Under the pieces are notes generated by a model. That model saw only the letters and a list, made by a program, of their open reading frames with translations, was not told where the DNA came from and ran no database searches. Source: a virus. Taken from it: a stretch of 46,499 bases of DNA. The position numbers and the translations under genes were made by a program. The stretch lies in IMG/VR virus record IMGVR_UViG_3300032236_001028, positions 1-46,499 of that record; one strand, 5' to 3'. Below are positions 3,241 to 44,586 of this stretch, piece after piece; the first letter of the stretch is position 1; each line of letters begins with the position of its first letter.

Positions 3241-4653
3241 ATGCTACTTGATATACAACAGAGGGGAACAAACCTCACAATTTCATACTACGACAAAGAC
3301 GGAAACACCAATTATAAGCAATATAAAATAAGTCAGGTTGCCAATTGGGAAGTATGTGGTGATAAAGATAAGAACAAATCAGATAAATTCACAAACTGGG
3401 ATGGCAGGCCGGTCAAAAGAGTAGCAGCAAAAGGTTTAGACAAATATTCTTTAATTCAATTCATAGATGAACTTTCATTCGAAGAGACTGAAGAGATCTT
3501 TGGTTATAATTTACCAAAGACTTTTTTCGTGGATATCGAGGTTGAAGTTAAAGATGGATTTCCAGAAGCCGAAAGAGCTGATACTCCGGTAACTACAATC
3601 GCAATCGTAACTCCAAATGCTCAAGCAATAGTACTAGCAACTGGAGATCTCGCACAAGATCAGCAGAAGAAAATTCAAAAAGACGTAGATGAATACTTTA
3701 AAGATACTGGAGTAAGATTCAGTTTTGTCTATAAGAAATTCGATTCAGAATACGATCTTCTCTATACTTTCTTTAAATCTTTCGTTTCTAAATTTCCGAT
3801 GGTCACCGGTTGGAACTTCATTAATTTTGACTGGAAATATCTAGTCAATAGAGCTTCTAAACTTGCAATCGATCCAGCAATATCAAGTCCGGTCGGAGAA
3901 CTTTGGGGAAAAGAGAATCTTCCTCTCCATGTTGGAATGATGGACTACTTGGAACTTTATAGAAAATGGGATCGTTCAGATTTCATTAAAGAAAATTTCA
4001 CTCTAGATTCTACTGCCGAAGCTGTGGTAGGACTTAAGAAGATCAAGTACAACGGTACAATACAAGATCTGTACGAAAAAGAATACACTAAATATGTCTA
4101 CTATAATGTAGTCGATACTTGTCTCGTATATCTTATCCATCAAAAGTTAAGAACTATGGACATTGCATTGACTATCGCGACTATGTGTAGAATAGGAATT
4201 TACAAGGCAGCAAGCCCGGTGGCGGTGACTGAATCTATGTTATGTAGAAAGTTCTTGGAGCAGAACAAGGTCATGGCTAAAGACTTTGTCGAAGACCAGA
4301 AGAAAGATGCACAATATGCAGGAGCTTATGTTAAAGCTCCAGTCGTAGGAATCCACAGGGCAGTAGCCTGTTTTGACTTTGCTTCTCTATATCCTTCGAT
4401 TATGAGACAAATTAACATCAGTCCAGAGTCTTTCATCAAGAAGACAGATCCGGTGGCAGCACAGAAAGAAAAGGCACCAGATAAGATCGTATCGGTAACT
4501 GGGGCTATCTATAAGAAAGAAGATTCTATCCTGAAGAACATTTTGACTGAACTTTACACTAATAGAAAGGTGTACAAAGGTAAGTCGAAAGATTACCAGA
4601 TAGAAGCTGACAATCTTAAAAAGGAAATTCAAAAACTTAAAAACGAGCTGTAG
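3241..4653 (+). CDS. 43A: Family B DNA polymerase, N-terminal half (gp43A): exonuclease plus palm motif A
   Basis: 470 residues carrying the first half of a T4 gp43-type replicative polymerase. The 3'-5' proofreading motifs are complete: Exo I VDIE (D98, E100), Exo II GWNFINFDWKYL, Exo III YYNVVDTCLVYL. Palm motif A is intact (FDFASLYPSIM, catalytic D379). The protein ends about 90 residues later in a charged helix (ADNLKKEIQKLKNEL), which corresponds to one helix of the fingers. Motifs B and C are missing here and are found in the gene at 9315. The stop at 4653 is followed by a separate short region and a terminator, so this is a real gene end. The enzyme can only work as a complex with the second half. 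Confidence 0.9.
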   Translation: MLLDIQQRGTNLTISYYDKDGNTNYKQYKISQVANWEVCGDKDKNKSDKFTNWDGRPVKRVAAKGLDKYSLIQFIDELSFEETEEIFGYNLPKTFFVDIEVEVKDGFPEAERADTPVTTIAIVTPNAQAIVLATGDLAQDQQKKIQKDVDEYFKDTGVRFSFVYKKFDSEYDLLYTFFKSFVSKFPMVTGWNFINFDWKYLVNRASKLAIDPAISSPVGELWGKENLPLHVGMMDYLELYRKWDRSDFIKENFTLDSTAEAVVGLKKIKYNGTIQDLYEKEYTKYVYYNVVDTCLVYLIHQKLRTMDIALTIATMCRIGIYKAASPVAVTESMLCRKFLEQNKVMAKDFVEDQKKDAQYAGAYVKAPVVGIHRAVACFDFASLYPSIMRQINISPESFIKKTDPVAAQKEKAPDKIVSVTGAIYKKEDSILKNILTELYTNRKVYKGKSKDYQIEADNLKKEIQKLKNEL

Positions 4654-18324: not shown

Positions 18325-19311
18325 GTGTCAGCTTACAACGCAGAATTTAACAAAGACCTCTCTTTTCTGAGACATATCGTAGCAGCTCTTTTACATGAGC
18401 TGAACGACAAGATCTATTATTACAATGTGATAGATGAGGAGACTAAGCAAAAGATAAATGTACCCTTCTACTATTCAGTAACTGGTCAAGAACGTTTTCT
18501 CTTAGATAATTTTCTCTTCGATAATCAAGCAGAAGGTAAAGCAATAGGTGACTATGAAAAAGTACCTAGAGGCATCATTCAATTAGAATCTTCTGCAATA
18601 GATTCTGCAGCACTTATTAACAAGTTTGTAAGAACTCAAATCATTAGACCTTATAAAGGTCAACTAAAGACTTTTGCCTTGATGACACAGGCAATTCCAG
18701 TCATTCTTAATTTTACCACAACGATCGTAGTCAGTAACGCTATTGAACTATTCAAAATTACTGAATCACTAATCAGCAAGTTTTATAAGAACAATCTATT
18801 CTATGTAGATTACGGTGGATTTCAAGCTCAATCTAACTTTTCATTGCCGGAAGATCTTGCAAAAGAACAACCTTTTGAATATGGATTCACTGATAGAAAA
18901 GAATACAAAGTAGACTTTACCTTAGAAGTTAAAAGCTTCTTCTATGTTTTCGAAGATGGTCTTCTTCTTCCAGAAATTCCTATGCAGGTTCGTGAAACTC
19001 CCGGAAACGCGAAACTTGCGGGAGTTGGTGTATACAATGGTAATGGAATATACTTTGGAAACGTGATGGAGAGCATTAAAGCTACGATAGATGATTATAA
19101 GAAAGCGCCTTTCTCTGGAGAGAATAGCAACCAAGGCTATAATGCATTGGCTGATCCTACTGGAGGATATTCTCCAGCAGGTCCTTCATACGGCGAGGCT
19201 ACTTCTAAACCTTCGGGACTTTCTGTTTCAGAATCGGCAGAAAGTAAACAATATAGAAGCGCTAATGCATCTAATACCGCAGGGCCTGATCTACTAAACT
19301 CTACTCAGTAA
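18325..19311 (+). CDS. 15: gp15-like tail completion / sheath terminator protein
   Basis: 328 residues with a GTG start. The pattern resembles T4 gp15: N-terminal YNAEFNKDLSFLRHIVAALLHEL with a strand leading to INVPFYYSV, then VPRGIIQLESSA, a long segment ending in a helix pair (AIELFKITESLISKFYKN), then KVDFTLEVKSFFYVFEDG. In T4 gp15 caps the tail at the sheath top and joins it to the head. The C-terminal 70 residues are low complexity (Gly, Ser, Pro). It is far from the terminase/sheath cluster, where gp15 sits in T4. Identification is by pattern only. Confidence 0.5.
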   Translation: MSAYNAEFNKDLSFLRHIVAALLHELNDKIYYYNVIDEETKQKINVPFYYSVTGQERFLLDNFLFDNQAEGKAIGDYEKVPRGIIQLESSAIDSAALINKFVRTQIIRPYKGQLKTFALMTQAIPVILNFTTTIVVSNAIELFKITESLISKFYKNNLFYVDYGGFQAQSNFSLPEDLAKEQPFEYGFTDRKEYKVDFTLEVKSFFYVFEDGLLLPEIPMQVRETPGNAKLAGVGVYNGNGIYFGNVMESIKATIDDYKKAPFSGENSNQGYNALADPTGGYSPAGPSYGEATSKPSGLSVSESAESKQYRSANASNTAGPDLLNSTQ

Positions 19312-19367: not shown

Positions 19368-21125
19368 ATGGGATATCCAGTTTACTTAAACGGTCATTTT
19401 CCAAGTGCAGCAGAAACTGCAGCTTCGAAAGACACCTTGTCAGTATTGATCGCTGAATTCAGAAAAAGCGGTAAATCTGACGCTCAAATCTATAGCATTC
19501 TCATGGGAATGGGAATTGCTCCTGAAAAAGCCGCAAACGGCATTCAGGGGATAACAAAAGAGCCAACACCTGAAGAAGTAGCAATGCAAACAGCAGCTAG
19601 AACATTCTTACAGGTCATCAGCGTAGAAGAAAAAGATAACACACAAACAAAAAACATAAACATGAAGTTTCCAATCGAGAATCTCATCAAGAAGATTCAA
19701 GAAACAATGCAGTCAGTTACAGAACTCGACGCTGCAAATTCTGGGAAATACGGCTTCTCGGTGAAGAAGATCAAAGAGAACTTAGATGCTTCTTTGGTTG
19801 CGTTAGACGTAGATAAAGCTCAAGATTTGCTTAAATCGATCGATAACACAAACAAGTCTCTCGAGGATTTCTTAAAGAAACCTAATGCGGCTGCTGAATT
19901 AGACAAGCTTAAGAAACAAGCAATGTCTATCACAGAGAGAAAACACATTCTCGAAACAATCAGCGTCTTAAGACAAAAATTACACGAGCATGCTTGGATC
20001 GAATCAGTAAAAGACCTTTGCCTCCACATAGACGAACTCAAAGTTCAAAACAGAATGTCTATGTATTTGATGGAAGCTCTTTACAACATGAAGAACGACA
20101 AATTCAACGCTTTCAATAAGAAGTCAGTAGAAGTTGTAGAGAAGATGATCGAAGAAGGCGAAGAACACATCAAGAACAATTACAATTCTCTTAAAGAATT
20201 TGCATGGTCTGTTCCAGTTAGAAACGCAATTGGTAAAATTGCAACTACTTTGAACGAAATGAAGGACAGTCAAGCTGGAGCAACTAATAAAGTATTTAGT
20301 CCAGTACAAGTAAACGAAGACGAAAGCGTAACAGTTGCTATTTCTGGTAAGTTCTATGCTATTTCAGAAAACGGAATCGCAGAAGTTAACGAATCACAAA
20401 AACCAACTCCTAGATTCCTTAAGACTCTAGATGCACTTTCAATGTTCTCTATCGTTAGCGAAGCTACAGCACCTTTTGCTGGTACAGTTTTCAATTACTA
20501 TGGTAAGAGAAACACTTTAAGCATCAACGAAGGAAAAGCATACGTAGGATCTACAGTATTAGAAAAAGTTACTCCAGAAGCTATTATGTTTGCTCTTCAA
20601 GAAAATACATTAACTTCTAGCGACGCAGCAGTTAAAGCTGAAAAGATCGCATTCTTAATGGAGTCTTTAGATACTGTTAAAGAGATCGATATTTTCACTT
20701 CTATCACATCTAGACAAAGACAAGGAGTTGCAGTAAATATCGCAAAGATGAACGAAAACATTTTTGTTAATAGAATCAATGCGGCTATGGGTTGCAATGA
20801 AATGATCCAAGTTAAGAGCGCTAAAGTGGCACAAGAATTAGTAAACGAATTCGTTAATTTCGATATCACACCTTTAGTACAAGAAATGTTGACTTCAGAA
20901 GAAAAGCAAATGGCTGATCTTCAAGAGAAGAAAAACTCTCTTCAAGAAGGTTTGAAAATTTTTGAAACTAAGAAAAAGGAAATTTTAGCTATTCAAGCTT
21001 TAAATCCAGAAGCAATGCAAGTACAAGAAGCATTTGAAATCGTATCTTCTGAGATCGAAAAGAATGAAAAAGAGTTACAAGCGGTGTATCATCAAATTTC
21101 AGAGCTTTCAGAAAAAAAAAATTAA
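19368..21125 (+). CDS. Putative virion protein with apparent -1 frameshift extension
   Basis: 585 residues in the zero frame, mostly helical, with a coiled-coil end (IEKNEKELQAVYHQISELSE). The first 45 residues contain a small helical motif (LIAEFRKSGKSDAQIYSILM). A central beta-rich portion lies near 320-400 (VTVAISGKFYAISENGIAEV). I do not recognise the family. Its own TATATAGA element and its place between gp15-like and gp55 genes indicate late, probably structural, expression. The zero-frame stop lies directly behind a run of ten A (21112-21121). Reading -1 there continues for 65 codons to a stop that overlaps the next ATG, giving a 650-residue form. Confidence 0.75.
   Translation: MGYPVYLNGHFPSAAETAASKDTLSVLIAEFRKSGKSDAQIYSILMGMGIAPEKAANGIQGITKEPTPEEVAMQTAARTFLQVISVEEKDNTQTKNINMKFPIENLIKKIQETMQSVTELDAANSGKYGFSVKKIKENLDASLVALDVDKAQDLLKSIDNTNKSLEDFLKKPNAAAELDKLKKQAMSITERKHILETISVLRQKLHEHAWIESVKDLCLHIDELKVQNRMSMYLMEALYNMKNDKFNAFNKKSVEVVEKMIEEGEEHIKNNYNSLKEFAWSVPVRNAIGKIATTLNEMKDSQAGATNKVFSPVQVNEDESVTVAISGKFYAISENGIAEVNESQKPTPRFLKTLDALSMFSIVSEATAPFAGTVFNYYGKRNTLSINEGKAYVGSTVLEKVTPEAIMFALQENTLTSSDAAVKAEKIAFLMESLDTVKEIDIFTSITSRQRQGVAVNIAKMNENIFVNRINAAMGCNEMIQVKSAKVAQELVNEFVNFDITPLVQEMLTSEEKQMADLQEKKNSLQEGLKIFETKKKEILAIQALNPEAMQVQEAFEIVSSEIEKNEKELQAVYHQISELSEKKN
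21111..21122 (+). promoter_or_regulatory. Homopolymer A10 slippery site
   Basis: G followed by ten A and then TTA. In the zero frame the codons are GAA AAA AAA AAT TAA (stop). A one-base backward slip on AAA AAA gives AAA TTA AAC and continues in an open frame. This matches the A AAA AAA heptamer type of slippery sequence and would also suit polymerase slippage. Confidence 0.55.
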
Positions 21126-21319
21126 ACGAAGCTGAATTAAAACCTAACGAAGCTTACGCTGTAGTCACGCAGAGTGATACAAAATTGAAGGCGGGCAATA
21201 AAATAATAGTAAACGCCAGTGAATATTCTAAATCTTCTGATGAAGAAGAAATAGACTACAGAACTTCAGATGGTGAAAACGGTAAAATTTTGAGAAAATT
21301 CCTTAAAGTACAAATTTGA
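21122..21319 (+). CDS. -1 frame extension of the 585-residue protein
   Basis: 65 codons in the -1 frame ending at TGA 21317-21319, which overlaps the gp55 ATG (TGATG), the same junction style as real genes here. It has no ATG near its beginning, so it can only be made as a fusion. Composition is coding-like: starts LNEAELKPNEAYAVV, then KLKAGNKIIVNASEYSK and ends GKILRKFLKVQI. This looks like a small beta-barrel domain. It could be programmed frameshifting, transcript slippage, or a base-count error in the A-run. Confidence 0.7.
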   Translation, partial: LNEAELKPNEAYAVVTQSDTKLKAGNKIIVNASEYSKSSDEEEIDYRTSDGENGKILRKFLKVQI

Positions 21320-21696
21320 TGAAACCAAAAGTAGAGAAAGCCTTCTATGTAAAACCAAAAGAGTTTTATGAAGAGATGGTAATTTCAAAAAAAGAAAACT
21401 CTCTAACGCCAAGGGCGCAGGAGATGATGATAAAAATTGCAAACAAAGCTTCTCAGAGGCTAGTTTACAAAAATCCGGAAGACAGGAAAGATTGCATATC
21501 TGCAGCTTACCTAGATCTTTTAAAATATTGGAGAAGCTTTAACCCAGAAAAAGGAACTAACGCATTCGCATATTTTACAGAGATCGCAAAACGTGGTTTC
21601 GCCAAGGGCTGGAACCAATTGCACCCTAAAAAGTACAAAGGTACCATTAGCATTGACAGCCACGGGGATGACTCCGAAGGCATATACAGTATCTAA
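21319..21696 (+). CDS. 55: Late transcription sigma factor (gp55-like)
   Basis: 125 residues from the ATG at 21319; a TTG three bases earlier is a less likely start. The central part looks like a minimal sigma region 2 as in T4 gp55: DCISAAYLDLLKYWRSFNP, then NAFAYFTEIAKRGFAKGWNQ, followed by a short tail. T4 gp55 directs host RNA polymerase to late promoters and binds the sliding clamp through its C-terminus. The recurrent TATATAGA elements in this window would be its targets. The stop overlaps the gp4 start (TAATG). It is shorter than T4 gp55 (185). Confidence 0.65.
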   Translation: MKPKVEKAFYVKPKEFYEEMVISKKENSLTPRAQEMMIKIANKASQRLVYKNPEDRKDCISAAYLDLLKYWRSFNPEKGTNAFAYFTEIAKRGFAKGWNQLHPKKYKGTISIDSHGDDSEGIYSI

Positions 21697-31845: not shown

Positions 31846-32356
31846 ATCACTTAAGAATCCAAAAATCAGTATCAGGGACTGGGGTAAAGCTCCAAGAAAA
31901 CATGGGATATTACTCAAGTTCCTGACTCCTGAACAGAAGAAATTCTTGTTCGCTAACGATCACCTCAAATTTGTATCTAGGAACAAGGACACGATGTCTG
32001 CAATATTTCACGTATTTTTCCAGGAACAGGTCAGAAAAGATGCTAGAGCAACTCTACACAATCCTTTCACTGGTACTTTCACGAATCGATATCAATTGAA
32101 CAGAGACGCCCAATTAGTAGATTGGGAATGTGCAATATGTCTAGCTGAGATTAAATCCAGCATGATAGACTATTCACCTGAGAACTTTTTATGTTCTAAA
32201 TGTAAAGAGGCTCATTCAGGAGCCAAGCAAATAGATTCCAGAATCAAACAGAATTCTATCAAATTCACAGAACACTGTAAAGAGATGCTCACTTCTGAGC
32301 AGAAAGAATTTATTAGATTTGTGAAGCTTAATCAAAAGCGAGAGCTTCTTCAATAG
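31838..32356 (+). CDS. Unknown zinc-ribbon-like protein
   Basis: 172 residues. A four-cysteine zinc site is visible, CAIC and CSKC separated by 16 residues (near 110-134). Around it are basic helices (QEQVRKDARATLHNPF; KLNQKRELLQ). The N-terminal part (SIRDWGKAPRKHGILLKFLT) is also basic, suggesting nucleic-acid contact. The start overlaps the preceding gene by 8 bases and the 3' end overlaps the minus-strand gene by 29 bases, so it closes the late operon. No family recognised. Confidence 0.65.
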   Translation: MAKSLKNPKISIRDWGKAPRKHGILLKFLTPEQKKFLFANDHLKFVSRNKDTMSAIFHVFFQEQVRKDARATLHNPFTGTFTNRYQLNRDAQLVDWECAICLAEIKSSMIDYSPENFLCSKCKEAHSGAKQIDSRIKQNSIKFTEHCKEMLTSEQKEFIRFVKLNQKRELLQ

Positions 32357-33179
32357 AAATTTTAGGGAAACATGTGATCTTACTCACCTGAGATGCATTG
32401 TAAACTTTCACCTTTCTCTTTTCTAAAGGTTCTACTATCGTTTCAAAACTAGGCAACATGATACGCTCCATGACGCTCGTATCTGCAGTAGAAACGTATC
32501 CATCATGCCAATGCGTTTGTTTGGTTGTATTCTGCATATCAAATCCTAAGAGCACTATTCTTTTTGCTCCTAGATGATAAGCAAGATTGATTGCAGCATA
32601 TCCGGAATTTCCACCATCTCTTAACCCGTATGACATTGTCTCGAGACCAGTCTTTCCAGTGTTTAGTAAGTTAATAACGTCACTTCTTTTTGGTTCCGGT
32701 CTACATGTGACTTTGATCCCGGTAAATGCGTCGATCTCTTTAGGAAACCACTCGTAGAAACGGGTATCACTCCAATATAAAACCTGAGCAAAAGGAATGC
32801 TCATGAAAGCTTTATTGACAGCAATTACAGTCTTGTCTCTTAAGAGCTCGAAATCAAAATCTTTGAGAGAAGGACCTCCTCCAACGATGAATATTGTATC
32901 ACCGAGAAAAATTGGATCGATGTAAGTGTAATTATCATACTGCCAAGTCTTGGCTATCTTTCGATGCGTTTCTTCAGGCTCGATTATCTTTCTTTTATCT
33001 TCTTGAGTCAGAAGTCCAAGATTGGCTCTATCCCTTAAAGCATTTTCTCTCGAAGATATTTCCAAGACTCTCACCGGTCTATCACTAAGGTTTCTTATTT
33101 CGTGTGGTTCAATCTTGATTGTGCTAGTTCCTCTACGAACTGTAAATGTACCTGAACCGTTAGATCTGTTAGTTGCCAT
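32328..33179 (-). CDS. DUF115/MptE-like Rossmann protein, minus strand
   Basis: 283 residues. Residues about 95-115 (IFIVGGGPSLKDFDFELLRD) and NSGYAAINLAYHLGAKRIVLLGFDM near 190-215 are the two signature segments of the DUF115 / 6-hydroxymethylpterin pyrophosphokinase-like group. That group includes enzymes linked to glycan or flagellin modification. The N-terminal 70 residues (TFTVRRGTSTIKIEPHEIRN) look like a small beta domain. It is the only minus-strand gene I support in the window and ends convergently inside the zinc-ribbon gene. Substrate unknown; a cargo gene modifying phage or host surface is possible. Confidence 0.72.
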   Translation of the reverse strand: MATNRSNGSGTFTVRRGTSTIKIEPHEIRNLSDRPVRVLEISSRENALRDRANLGLLTQEDKRKIIEPEETHRKIAKTWQYDNYTYIDPIFLGDTIFIVGGGPSLKDFDFELLRDKTVIAVNKAFMSIPFAQVLYWSDTRFYEWFPKEIDAFTGIKVTCRPEPKRSDVINLLNTGKTGLETMSYGLRDGGNSGYAAINLAYHLGAKRIVLLGFDMQNTTKQTHWHDGYVSTADTSVMERIMLPSFETIVEPLEKRKVKVYNASQVSKITCFPKISIEEALAFD

Positions 33180-41430: not shown

Positions 41431-44400
41431 ATGGCATTGAGTCCTCAAATAGCAGCTTTCAGATCAGCTGGAGTATATAGACTGGAATTTGATAAAAGCC
41501 AGACTGTAGCTATTCCTGCTGAGCAACTGAGACTCGTCATTGGTTTCTCTAGAAAGGGACCTTTCAACACACCGGTATTCTGTTCTGACACTTCATTCTT
41601 CAAATCAGTATTTGGAGACGTTAACAGAATCGACGAAAGAAAGGGTAGCTTCTTCCACAGAAGCTGTCTCGCGGCACTCGAAAGAGGTCCTATCCTAGCT
41701 TTAAACCTTTGGAGATTAAATAATGACACTACTGGTAGTGGAGACTATGACGAAGCATGTCTCTTCAGTACTAGTTCTACTGAATCTAACCAAGGATTCA
41801 CGAACCAAGCACTCTACTCTGGTTACTTTAATCAAGACAAGTTTTGGTACCCTAGCCCAGATGCATTCCTAGCGAACATCGGAGCTACAGACAATACACC
41901 TTTCAATGATCTCTTTAACCTAGTTAACATTGGTAGCAAGCAAGTTACTGTATTAGTAAGAAAAGCTGCACCAGAAAATGTAAAAGGCTTCCAGATCAAA
42001 GTACAAGATTGGTACGGCGCGGCAAATGTTCCTGCTTACCTCAACGGTGAGAGTTACATCTCAGATTTCATGGTAGACGTTCTACTTTATGGTGGAAACT
42101 ACGGTGCAGATACTAACGCAGCTTATCCATACGAAAGATTCACTTCAGATCCAACTTTTGCTAAATATTTCGATAAGCAAAACGGTTTGAAGAGAAAAGT
42201 ATCAGTGACAGACACTACAGATACTTATGTTGATCAGTTCAACAACTTATCTCAAGTAAGTTTAGTTGCTACATATACTGGATCTCTTCTTCCAGGTTTC
42301 ACAGATCTTAACGGTAACAATCTCTTCATCGAAGATATGATTAACGCAGATACTCCTTCAACTGGTCTATTCTGTGCAATCAACAGAGCAATGTTCGATC
42401 TTGGAGATCTTCTTGATGGAGTTGATAAAGGCATCGACTTAATCGGTCACGAATTAGAAAGAACTAGCCCTAAGACTATCGATTTCTTATCATATAAAGC
42501 GACTATCGATTCAGATCTAAGTTATGATCAAAATTCTAGCACATACAGAAACGTAAGCTTTAGCGGAGTAACTGTAACATACAACAGTGCTGGACATTGG
42601 GACTTATTAGCTTCAGCTTCTGGAGCTTCTGCAGCTTACAATGTCTTCAAGAATTTAGTTGCAAATTCAGATGGAACGGTTGGAGATTTCTTGATCAGCC
42701 ACGATGGTACAAAGGCAATACCTGTAACTGATGTCACAGTGACAACAAGTTACGTATTAGTTACAGTATCAGGTTCTGGTATAATAAGCAATCCTTTTAC
42801 TGGAACTACTACTTTAAGTTATGTAAAATCTGCAGATCTTAATTTCGTAGCACAAAGAAACGATAATGGTAACACTGGAACTATAATCTGTGGACCTTCA
42901 TCAGACCTCTATTCTGATATTTCAAATGGAGTTTTAACTGATGGTGATAAAGCAGTATTCGGATCTACAATTTCTGCTTCTCAAATTCTTTACTTGGATT
43001 TCAATCAATTGACATATAACTACATCTATCACAATGTGGCTGGTACTCCAACTAGAGTAGCAATTTCAGATAGCACTTATGCTATCCCAACATTTGTAGT
43101 GAATGCATTTGCAGATTCAGCGTTCCAAGATCTGATCACAAATAATGCAGATTTTGGAATCAATCAAAGTGGAATGTACTTCTTCGATAGCATGGATAGT
43201 CCTTATTCACAAGGAATCTTCGGAGTACAAACTTTCAAAGGTTCATTGAATGAAACTGTAGAAGTTTTAGAATATAGTGGAACTCCAGGTACAAGTCTTT
43301 CAGCTAATGAAGTGATCGTACCTTCTACAGCTGCACCTTATGTAGCAGTAGGAAAGTACCTTATCCAAAGCGTAGGTTCAGCATCTACACCTTCTAGACT
43401 TACTTACATCAAAGAAGTGATTGGAATTTCAAACTATACACCAGGTGTTAACGCACTTAAAGTAGTTTGTGAAGGACCAATCCTCATGAGAACGATTAAC
43501 GGTTTAGATACAGTAGAAGCATACACTGCAATTATTGATTGGGTAGATTACTATAACATGTTCACACTCGAAGGATTCACTCTTGGAGCATATAACCTCC
43601 CTGATGGAACTAACGAACAACAAAATAACATCCTTTACGATACTCTTTCAGGTACTAAGTTATTTGAAGCTCTTATCGATAAAGATAATATCTCATACAG
43701 ATACATCGTTGATACTTTCGCTAACGGTATCGAAGCTAATTCTAAGGCAATCTATTTTGAACTTGCTAAAGCAAGACAAAATGCTTTCGCTATTGTAAAT
43801 GCTCCTTCTATCGATAACTTCAAGAAGAGCACAGATCCAAGCTTCTTAAATACTCTTGGTCAATTCGATACAATGATGATCCCAGACGGAGGAAACCTCA
43901 GCAAAAACCCAACAGTAAGATATACTTTACCAGGTGTCACTCAAGGTTCTAGCTACGGATCTTTCTACTCTCCTTTCTTAACAGTAAGAGAAAATGGAGC
44001 AAACATCCAAGTTCCACCAGCAGGATACGTATCTAATAACTATATCGACAAATACAGCACTGCACTCCCATGGTCAATCGTGGCTGGTAACAGAAGAGGT
44101 ATTGTCGGTGGAAGAGGAGTAATTGGAGTCGAGTATAACTACAGCAAGACTGATAGAGATTACATCGAGCCATTTGGAATTAACCCAATCATCTTCCAAA
44201 ACGGAACTGGACTTGTAATCTTTGCAAATAAGACGGCTCAACAAAATGTACAAAGTGCATTATCAGCGGCTCACGTAAGAGAAGTAATGATCTACATCCA
44301 AGACGGTTTAGCAGCGATCTTGAAGAACTACCTGTTCGAATTTAACACTGCACAAACAAGACTTGAGATCAAGACTTTGGCTGATAACTTTATGGCTACT

Positions 44401-44586
44401 GTACAATCTGAAAACGGTGTTTATAACTTTAGAAACATCATGGACGATACTAACAATACTCCAGATGTTATCGAAAAGAATATCGGTATACTTGATACGT
44501 TTGTAGAACCAGTTAAAGGTATGGAGATCTTGGTAACAAGAACAACTATCTTAAGACCTGGACAAATTGCAAGCGGTCAAATCTAA
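41431..44586 (+). CDS. 18: Contractile tail sheath protein (gp18), enlarged
   Basis: 1051 residues, about 390 more than T4 gp18 (659). The N-terminus is typical (SPQIAAFRSAGVYRLEFDKS ... LVIGFSRKGPFNTPVF), as is the C-terminal domain (DRDYIEPFGINPIIFQNGTG; VREVMIYIQDGLAAILKNYL). It ends in the segment that engages neighbouring subunits (MEILVTRTTILRPGQ). The surplus lies in the middle, roughly residues 360-700, with Thr/Ser/Gly-rich beta repeats of bacterial Ig type (FSGVTVTYNSAGHWDLLASA). These probably decorate the tail exterior. Confidence 0.92.
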   Translation: MALSPQIAAFRSAGVYRLEFDKSQTVAIPAEQLRLVIGFSRKGPFNTPVFCSDTSFFKSVFGDVNRIDERKGSFFHRSCLAALERGPILALNLWRLNNDTTGSGDYDEACLFSTSSTESNQGFTNQALYSGYFNQDKFWYPSPDAFLANIGATDNTPFNDLFNLVNIGSKQVTVLVRKAAPENVKGFQIKVQDWYGAANVPAYLNGESYISDFMVDVLLYGGNYGADTNAAYPYERFTSDPTFAKYFDKQNGLKRKVSVTDTTDTYVDQFNNLSQVSLVATYTGSLLPGFTDLNGNNLFIEDMINADTPSTGLFCAINRAMFDLGDLLDGVDKGIDLIGHELERTSPKTIDFLSYKATIDSDLSYDQNSSTYRNVSFSGVTVTYNSAGHWDLLASASGASAAYNVFKNLVANSDGTVGDFLISHDGTKAIPVTDVTVTTSYVLVTVSGSGIISNPFTGTTTLSYVKSADLNFVAQRNDNGNTGTIICGPSSDLYSDISNGVLTDGDKAVFGSTISASQILYLDFNQLTYNYIYHNVAGTPTRVAISDSTYAIPTFVVNAFADSAFQDLITNNADFGINQSGMYFFDSMDSPYSQGIFGVQTFKGSLNETVEVLEYSGTPGTSLSANEVIVPSTAAPYVAVGKYLIQSVGSASTPSRLTYIKEVIGISNYTPGVNALKVVCEGPILMRTINGLDTVEAYTAIIDWVDYYNMFTLEGFTLGAYNLPDGTNEQQNNILYDTLSGTKLFEALIDKDNISYRYIVDTFANGIEANSKAIYFELAKARQNAFAIVNAPSIDNFKKSTDPSFLNTLGQFDTMMIPDGGNLSKNPTVRYTLPGVTQGSSYGSFYSPFLTVRENGANIQVPPAGYVSNNYIDKYSTALPWSIVAGNRRGIVGGRGVIGVEYNYSKTDRDYIEPFGINPIIFQNGTGLVIFANKTAQQNVQSALSAAHVREVMIYIQDGLAAILKNYLFEFNTAQTRLEIKTLADNFMATVQSENGVYNFRNIMDDTNNTPDVIEKNIGILDTFVEPVKGMEILVTRTTILRPGQIASGQI

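Follow-up and report, generated by a model that had tools for sequence, protein, structure and literature searches.

A conserved adenine run as a probable slippage site before an SH3-fold domain in a gene of T4-like phages

A gene of a large, uncultured T4-like virus, here called gene X, ends in its own frame just behind a run of ten adenines, and past that run a domain with a predicted SH3 fold is open in the -1 frame. The DNA analysed is a virus record of 46,499 bases, which is called the window throughout. Comparison with relatives makes it very probable that functional slippage takes place at the run, whichever machine is responsible. It is also likely that the run is a selected, programmed site giving two forms of the gene X product, chiefly through RNA polymerase. 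The full reading has about an even chance, in our view: in T4-like jumbo phages, probably of Bacteroidota, polymerase slippage at an ancient site of exactly nine adenines sets the ratio of SH3-bearing to SH3-less copies of a late protein, the mixture being selected and the default product flipped between lineages. If true, this would be a previously undescribed case of a conserved polymerase-slippage switch in a phage gene family. To our knowledge, deeply conserved slippage sites are few. A limited literature search returned no phage gene in which nine adenines are kept in so many lineages regardless of the frame of the domain.

The junction in the window

The 0-frame end of gene X reads TCA GAA AAA AAA AAT TAA. 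The first-pass annotation of this DNA had the gene stopping right after ten adenines; the count of ten is correct, with an AAT codon standing between the pure-A codons and the stop. The features of the junction and of the genes on its two sides are as follows.

18325 to 19311, plus strand: tail sheath stabiliser (gp15/gp3 family), directly upstream of gene X; PF16724, E 4.7e-6
19368 to 21125, plus strand: gene X, 0-frame product, predicted short form of 585 aa, with a helical N-terminal part, a beta/alpha middle and a C-terminal coiled-coil hairpin
21112 to 21121, plus strand: A10 run, the candidate slippage site (A9 in nearly all relatives); 0-frame phase GAA AAA AAA AAT
21113 to 21119, plus strand: heptamer A_AAA_AAA, in a phase suited to a -1 ribosomal shift
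21116 to 21122, plus strand: second heptamer, A_AAA_AAT
21119 to 21316, plus strand: -1-frame extension of 66 codons, predicted SH3-fold domain; stop TGA at 21317 to 21319
21123 to 21125, plus strand: 0-frame stop TAA, which ends the short form
21133 to 21135, plus strand: +1-frame stop TGA, which closes the third frame 3 codons past the run
21319 to 21696, plus strand: gp55-like late sigma factor, 125 aa from the ATG at 21319; PHROG 234, E 8.3e-14

In the -1 frame, the extension starts as AAA TTA AAC GAA and continues to a TGA that overlaps the ATG of the gp55 gene as TGATG, the coordinates agreeing with the overlap annotated earlier. The predicted product of a -1 shift is 650 aa long and has 584 residues in common with the 585-aa form; both lengths, obtained from the 0-frame and -1-frame readings, are those that had been proposed. 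The extension was also correctly said to have no start codon of its own, as it contains no ATG or GTG and its one TTG (21185) is too far inside to start the domain.

The extension and its predicted fold

Between the window and its close relatives, the extension has a dN/dS of 0.12-0.25 in the -1 frame, with an excess of differences at third positions. The part of the gene before the run gives 0.08-0.18 and the same third-position pattern in the 0 frame. The pattern of selection follows the 0 frame up to the run and the -1 frame after it, and thus the coding frame changes at the run. Judged by these substitutions, purifying selection acts on the -1 frame of the extension.

The extension was modelled from an alignment with 13 relatives. 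The predicted structure is a small barrel (pLDDT 89.5), the best solved match of which is the SH3 domain of alpha-spectrin (VIA Z 8.0, rmsd 2.1, 55 residues aligned). The plausible beta-rich domain of the first-pass annotation is thereby given a predicted fold, that of a five-stranded SH3-like barrel; this is an assignment of fold only and does not imply peptide binding. An SH3 superposition was likewise obtained for the domain of L036, a relative that has it in frame. The huge phage LR756500.1 (462 kb) and a large clade of contigs have a homologous domain that continues gene X without a change of frame.

The architecture of gene X was read from an AlphaFold2 model of the same in-frame relative (624 residues, mean pLDDT 83.5, pTM 0.45). 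In this model, a helical N-terminal part is followed by a mixed middle and a coiled-coil hairpin, with the SH3 fold coming last, and the position of the A run corresponds to the linker that joins the hairpin and the SH3 domain. A structure search of the PDB found matches only for the coiled coil and the SH3 fold, and none for the N-terminal and middle parts, which it barely tested.

Conservation of the run among relatives

Relatives of gene X were found by pattern and profile searches, and then via gp55 and with broader profiles. Their sequences are metagenomic DNA, and a scan of genome contigs returned no relative. Five related contigs with 71-79% protein identity repeat the junction, as do more distant ones. 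In the close relatives, GAA AAA AAA A is followed by a 0-frame stop about one codon on and by a -1-frame extension that reaches gp55.

All loci with an HMM-recognisable SH3 domain, 64 distinct sequences, were entered in a junction table. An A run stands directly before the domain in 60 of them, with nine adenines in 59 and ten in the window, and 59 of these 60 have the form GAA AAA AAA A. The domain is in frame in 50 run-bearing loci and in the -1 frame in 10. Since the relatives do not count as independent cases, and just a few bases separate some of the 64, counts by cluster and the tree are the better guide; when clustered at 80% protein identity, 15 of 19 clusters have the run (6 frameshifted, 9 in frame). 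The run is absent from four SH3-bearing lineages (L018, L035, L094 and L130) and from L030, described below, so the two-form state is not universal.

Other runs of at least nine adenines are scarce in these phages, with only 2 in the 189 kb of the 19 representative loci. The run is retained in L090 and L091 despite AAA making up only 34% and 27% of their lysine codons, and it stays beside the SH3 domain where about 35-130 residues are inserted after the hairpin (L133-L176).

In all 60 run-bearing loci, each of the two frames other than that of the domain runs into a stop no more than five codons from the run. Given the amino acids and codon usage, such stops would be present in some 30-80% of cases, depending on the lineage. 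That both occur in all 12 of the representative in-frame loci is unlikely but not extreme, with a product of about 1e-4 if the lineages were independent, a figure which overstates the significance since they are related. By this reckoning, the closure of both other frames goes partly beyond the synonymous-codon expectation.

Some distant family members, with their run ahead of the 0-frame stop, carry other, unrelated-looking -1-frame extensions, of about 100 residues in L056/L057 (A9; L056 3536-3868) and about 165 residues in L061-L063 (A10; L061 3493-3990). Homology of the latter to the SH3 domain is unsupported (hhalign probability 1.2%). In L061 and L063, a second A9 lies inside the -1-frame extension at 3697, where a second slippage event would be possible. 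PAU gp111 looks similar by eye and was set aside as a relative, having no HMM match.

Polymerase or ribosome

In the proposed mechanism, RNA polymerase would stutter on the tract of 9-10 adenines, giving some transcripts with an extra A or with two fewer. In these, the SH3 frame would come into register and the 650-aa form would be made, while faithful transcripts would lead straight to the stop and to the 585-aa form ending in the coiled-coil hairpin, and +1 transcripts would stop within a few codons. In the in-frame relatives, the same A9 would yield the short form instead. Ribosomal -1 slippage on A_AAA_AAA may contribute to the outcome.

Among the two machines, RNA polymerase is favoured, being judged about twice as likely as the ribosome. 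Polymerase slippage calls for a homopolymer A/T run of about 8-9 or more and for near stops in the non-domain frames, and the junction has both. The length of 9-10 is held even where the codon phase of the run differs (L114, L056, L061). The phase itself was considered as a discriminator between ribosome and polymerase and is a weak one, being mostly constant.

The same two products could also come from programmed -1 ribosomal frameshifting on A_AAA_AAA, as in lambda G/GT and in E. coli dnaX, which we hold to be a possible but rather doubtful source of them. A heptamer of the X_XXY_YYZ type is in frame in the window (21113-21119), and A_AAA_AAA is always present in the run in slippery phase. 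The genes of the window also appear to shun such sequences: in slippery phase, A_AAA_AAG was seen 2 times against 11.5 expected and A_AAA_AA 8 times against 47, while AAA_AAA_G was seen 13 times against 18 expected. This phase-specific avoidance suggests that ribosome slipping is hazardous in the host, and it keeps ribosomal slippage a live alternative. A hairpin is found just past the run in L036/L037 (z about -3).

Against the ribosomal route, seven adenines suffice for a ribosome on A_AAA_AAA, yet the outermost ones, the first and the ninth, are invariant across the run-bearing loci. The +1 frame is kept closed as well, for which -1 shifting has no need. Ribosomal frameshifting is helped by an upstream Shine-Dalgarno-like element and/or a 3' structure at about 5-9 nt, neither being absolutely required. 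A Shine-Dalgarno-like motif was found upstream of 0 of the 39 predicted genes of the window, and no downstream RNA structure was detected in the window clade (z about 0); the usual stimulators are thus missing there. The earlier reading of a -1 frameshift that adds a domain at the A run is retained, while its ribosomal step was put too firmly, polymerase slippage fitting the junction at least equally well.

Two further observations belong here. Hairpins with z of about -3 to -5.5 and differing sequences occur in the part coding for the SH3 domain in L032 (3820-3869) and L033 (3852-3895). A 3' structure was considered as a general stimulator and rejected: the window clade has none, and the hairpins of L032 and L033/L065 begin some 35 nt past the run, beyond the reach of a classical stimulator. 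The avoidance of A_AAA_AAG and A_AAA_AA could, for its part, report on the lysine tRNA of the host.

Switches of the default product

In the tree of the gene X body, a single -1 clade (100/99) comprises the window, L022, L024, L025, L027, L032 and L033/L015. Its sister clade is in frame (100/100), save L114, which is in the -1 frame, and L094, from which the run is absent. The position of the -1 clade beside the in-frame clade, together with L114, means that the default product has switched at least once with the run kept. L114 is apparently a separate switch through an upstream frame change, seen in one contig, and a second switch of the default product is therefore probable.

Two loci in the tree deserve mention in their own right. 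L030 (2008-3966), inside the -1 clade, has lost both the run and the SH3 domain and is a natural case of a short form only. L114 (4650-4970), with the SH3 domain in the -1 frame inside the in-frame clade, has a lysine-rich tail after the domain.

As the domain is already in frame in 50 loci, slippage there would remove it; as it is in the -1 frame in the window clade, slippage there would add it. We infer that what is conserved is the mixture of forms and not the direction of the shift.

It may be argued that the frameshift is simply tolerated: a past indel would have broken the gene, with a run that was already there rescuing it and the short form bringing no benefit. Slippage can rescue broken frames, as with tssM1 of Citrobacter, and L114 does look as if its frame had recently changed upstream, next to the run. 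This account is nevertheless improbable, as the 50 in-frame loci need no rescue and still keep the run and both stops, and as the broken state has lasted while the lineages of the window, L032 and L033 diverged.

Because nature provides both polarities as well as lineages in which run or domain has been lost, the family can be used to test directly whether selection acts on the ratio between the two forms or on frame rescue. It also carries a warning for annotation: gene callers miss the SH3 domain in the window clade, and for the in-frame clade their predictions never include the short form.

The run as a genuine site

No run of at least eight adenines other than the A10 occurs in the 46.5-kb window; when synonymous codons are shuffled in its genes, 14.7 such runs and 5.2 of at least nine are expected. 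Runs of at least seven were seen 7 times against 34.8 expected from a shuffle within the window genes. The genes thus strongly avoid long A runs, and yet the A10 is kept.

We also weighed the possibility that the run was misread in sequencing or wrongly assembled, in which case there would be no programmed event and gene X would really be a 650-aa fusion in a single frame. Homopolymers are error-prone and a change of one base would restore a frame. Such an error is exceedingly improbable all the same. The frame break is shared by contigs of many separate metagenomes, in at least five protein clusters besides L114, and the relatives have A9 or A10 matched to the local frame. The alignment with relatives identifies the tenth A of the window as a substitution for the G that follows A9; since no indel is involved, the A10 is not a frame-breaking assembly slip. 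A search for the same junction in relatives had been proposed as a check with the first-pass annotation, and the junction recurs in independent contigs. On this comparative evidence, with the run in an unchanged position in dozens of distantly related phages, it is a genuine selected site and not an error.

Scarcely more credible is reinitiation behind the 0-frame stop, by which the extension would be made as a small protein of its own. A TTG does overlap the stop in L025/L027 (AGT TGA giving TTG ATT), but the window lacks a start codon close to the junction, L022 has only an ATA, and most relatives have the domain joined to gene X in one frame past the same A run.

Genome, host and likely role

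T4-like genes of the window were recognised by Pfam and PHROG matches, namely the gp20 portal, the gp21 protease, the gp23 capsid protein and the large terminase, along with a tail sheath C-terminal domain, a neck protein, the clamp loader gp44 and a gp4-like head closure protein. By these matches, the source of the window is a T4-like myovirus of the far-T4/jumbo type. A tRNA scan and an Rfam scan of it returned no matches. Its tail sheath protein (41431-44586) has 1051 residues, which is very long for a sheath, and the recognised part is the C-terminal domain only. At 32328-33179, on the minus strand, lies the lone minus-strand gene of this size among the late genes, with a weak MptE-like match.

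Gene X itself is located between the tail gene of the gp15/gp3 family and the gp55 gene, and this order suggests that its product is a late protein. Searches of Pfam and PHROGs gave no significant match for its family. Its structural neighbours in a viral library are uncharacterised phage proteins, including those of the Tenacibaculum phages PTm1 and pT24, and a sequence relative is present in the Prevotella Lak phages. These relatives, together with the missing Shine-Dalgarno motifs, point to hosts among the Bacteroidota.

Our best guess is that gene X encodes a late virion or assembly protein, a subset of whose copies would carry an SH3 tip. By analogy with other phage proteins in which some copies bear an additional C-terminal domain, one may further guess that the hairpin oligomerises and that the SH3 domain on this subset makes a contact.

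Comparison with known systems

The first-pass annotation had compared the junction with the tail chaperone genes of phages. The lambda-type G/GT pair is similar in being a phage gene in which a frameshift near the 3' end adds a C-terminal domain. It differs in gene, place and fold, and its slippery site is a two-codon heptamer, whereas the gene X family has a conserved A9 and no tape-measure context. A role as such a chaperone was considered for gene X and rejected, as it has no significant PHROG or Pfam match and does not lie between the major tail protein and the tape measure. The comparison is not sustained for a family that stands beside gp55 with no known chaperone role, homology or context.

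Slippage is reported in the literature to be efficient on 9 A or T, and the parallels span 9-11 A. In the bacterial secretion gene tssM (PLoS Genet 2014, PMC4256274), polymerase slippage at an A run gives long and short forms, with the default reversed between species: Citrobacter rodentium has A11 and a short default, and Yersinia pseudotuberculosis has A9 and a long default with 15-25% slippage. Gene X differs in that it belongs to phages, encodes an SH3 domain, is much more widely conserved and is known from sequence.

The tau and gamma forms of dnaX (PMC5009743, PMC3711429) are made by a -1 ribosomal shift in E. coli and by polymerase slippage on nine A/T in Thermus, and the layout is reversed in Chlorobi. 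As in the gene X family, two lengths arise at an A run, and polarity and mechanism vary by lineage while the outcome of two products is constant; Thermus dnaX also has stops in both non-zero frames. The protein is unrelated to gene X, and the window clade is without Shine-Dalgarno or stem-loop stimulators.

A last likeness is offered by the Ig-like C-terminal domains of phage capsid and tail proteins (PMC5009743), where a small beta domain is likewise borne by a subset of copies and where, as with the SH3 domain, frameshifted and in-frame arrangements occur in different phages. The fold there is Ig and not SH3, and in the gene X family the putative slippage site is itself conserved across both arrangements.
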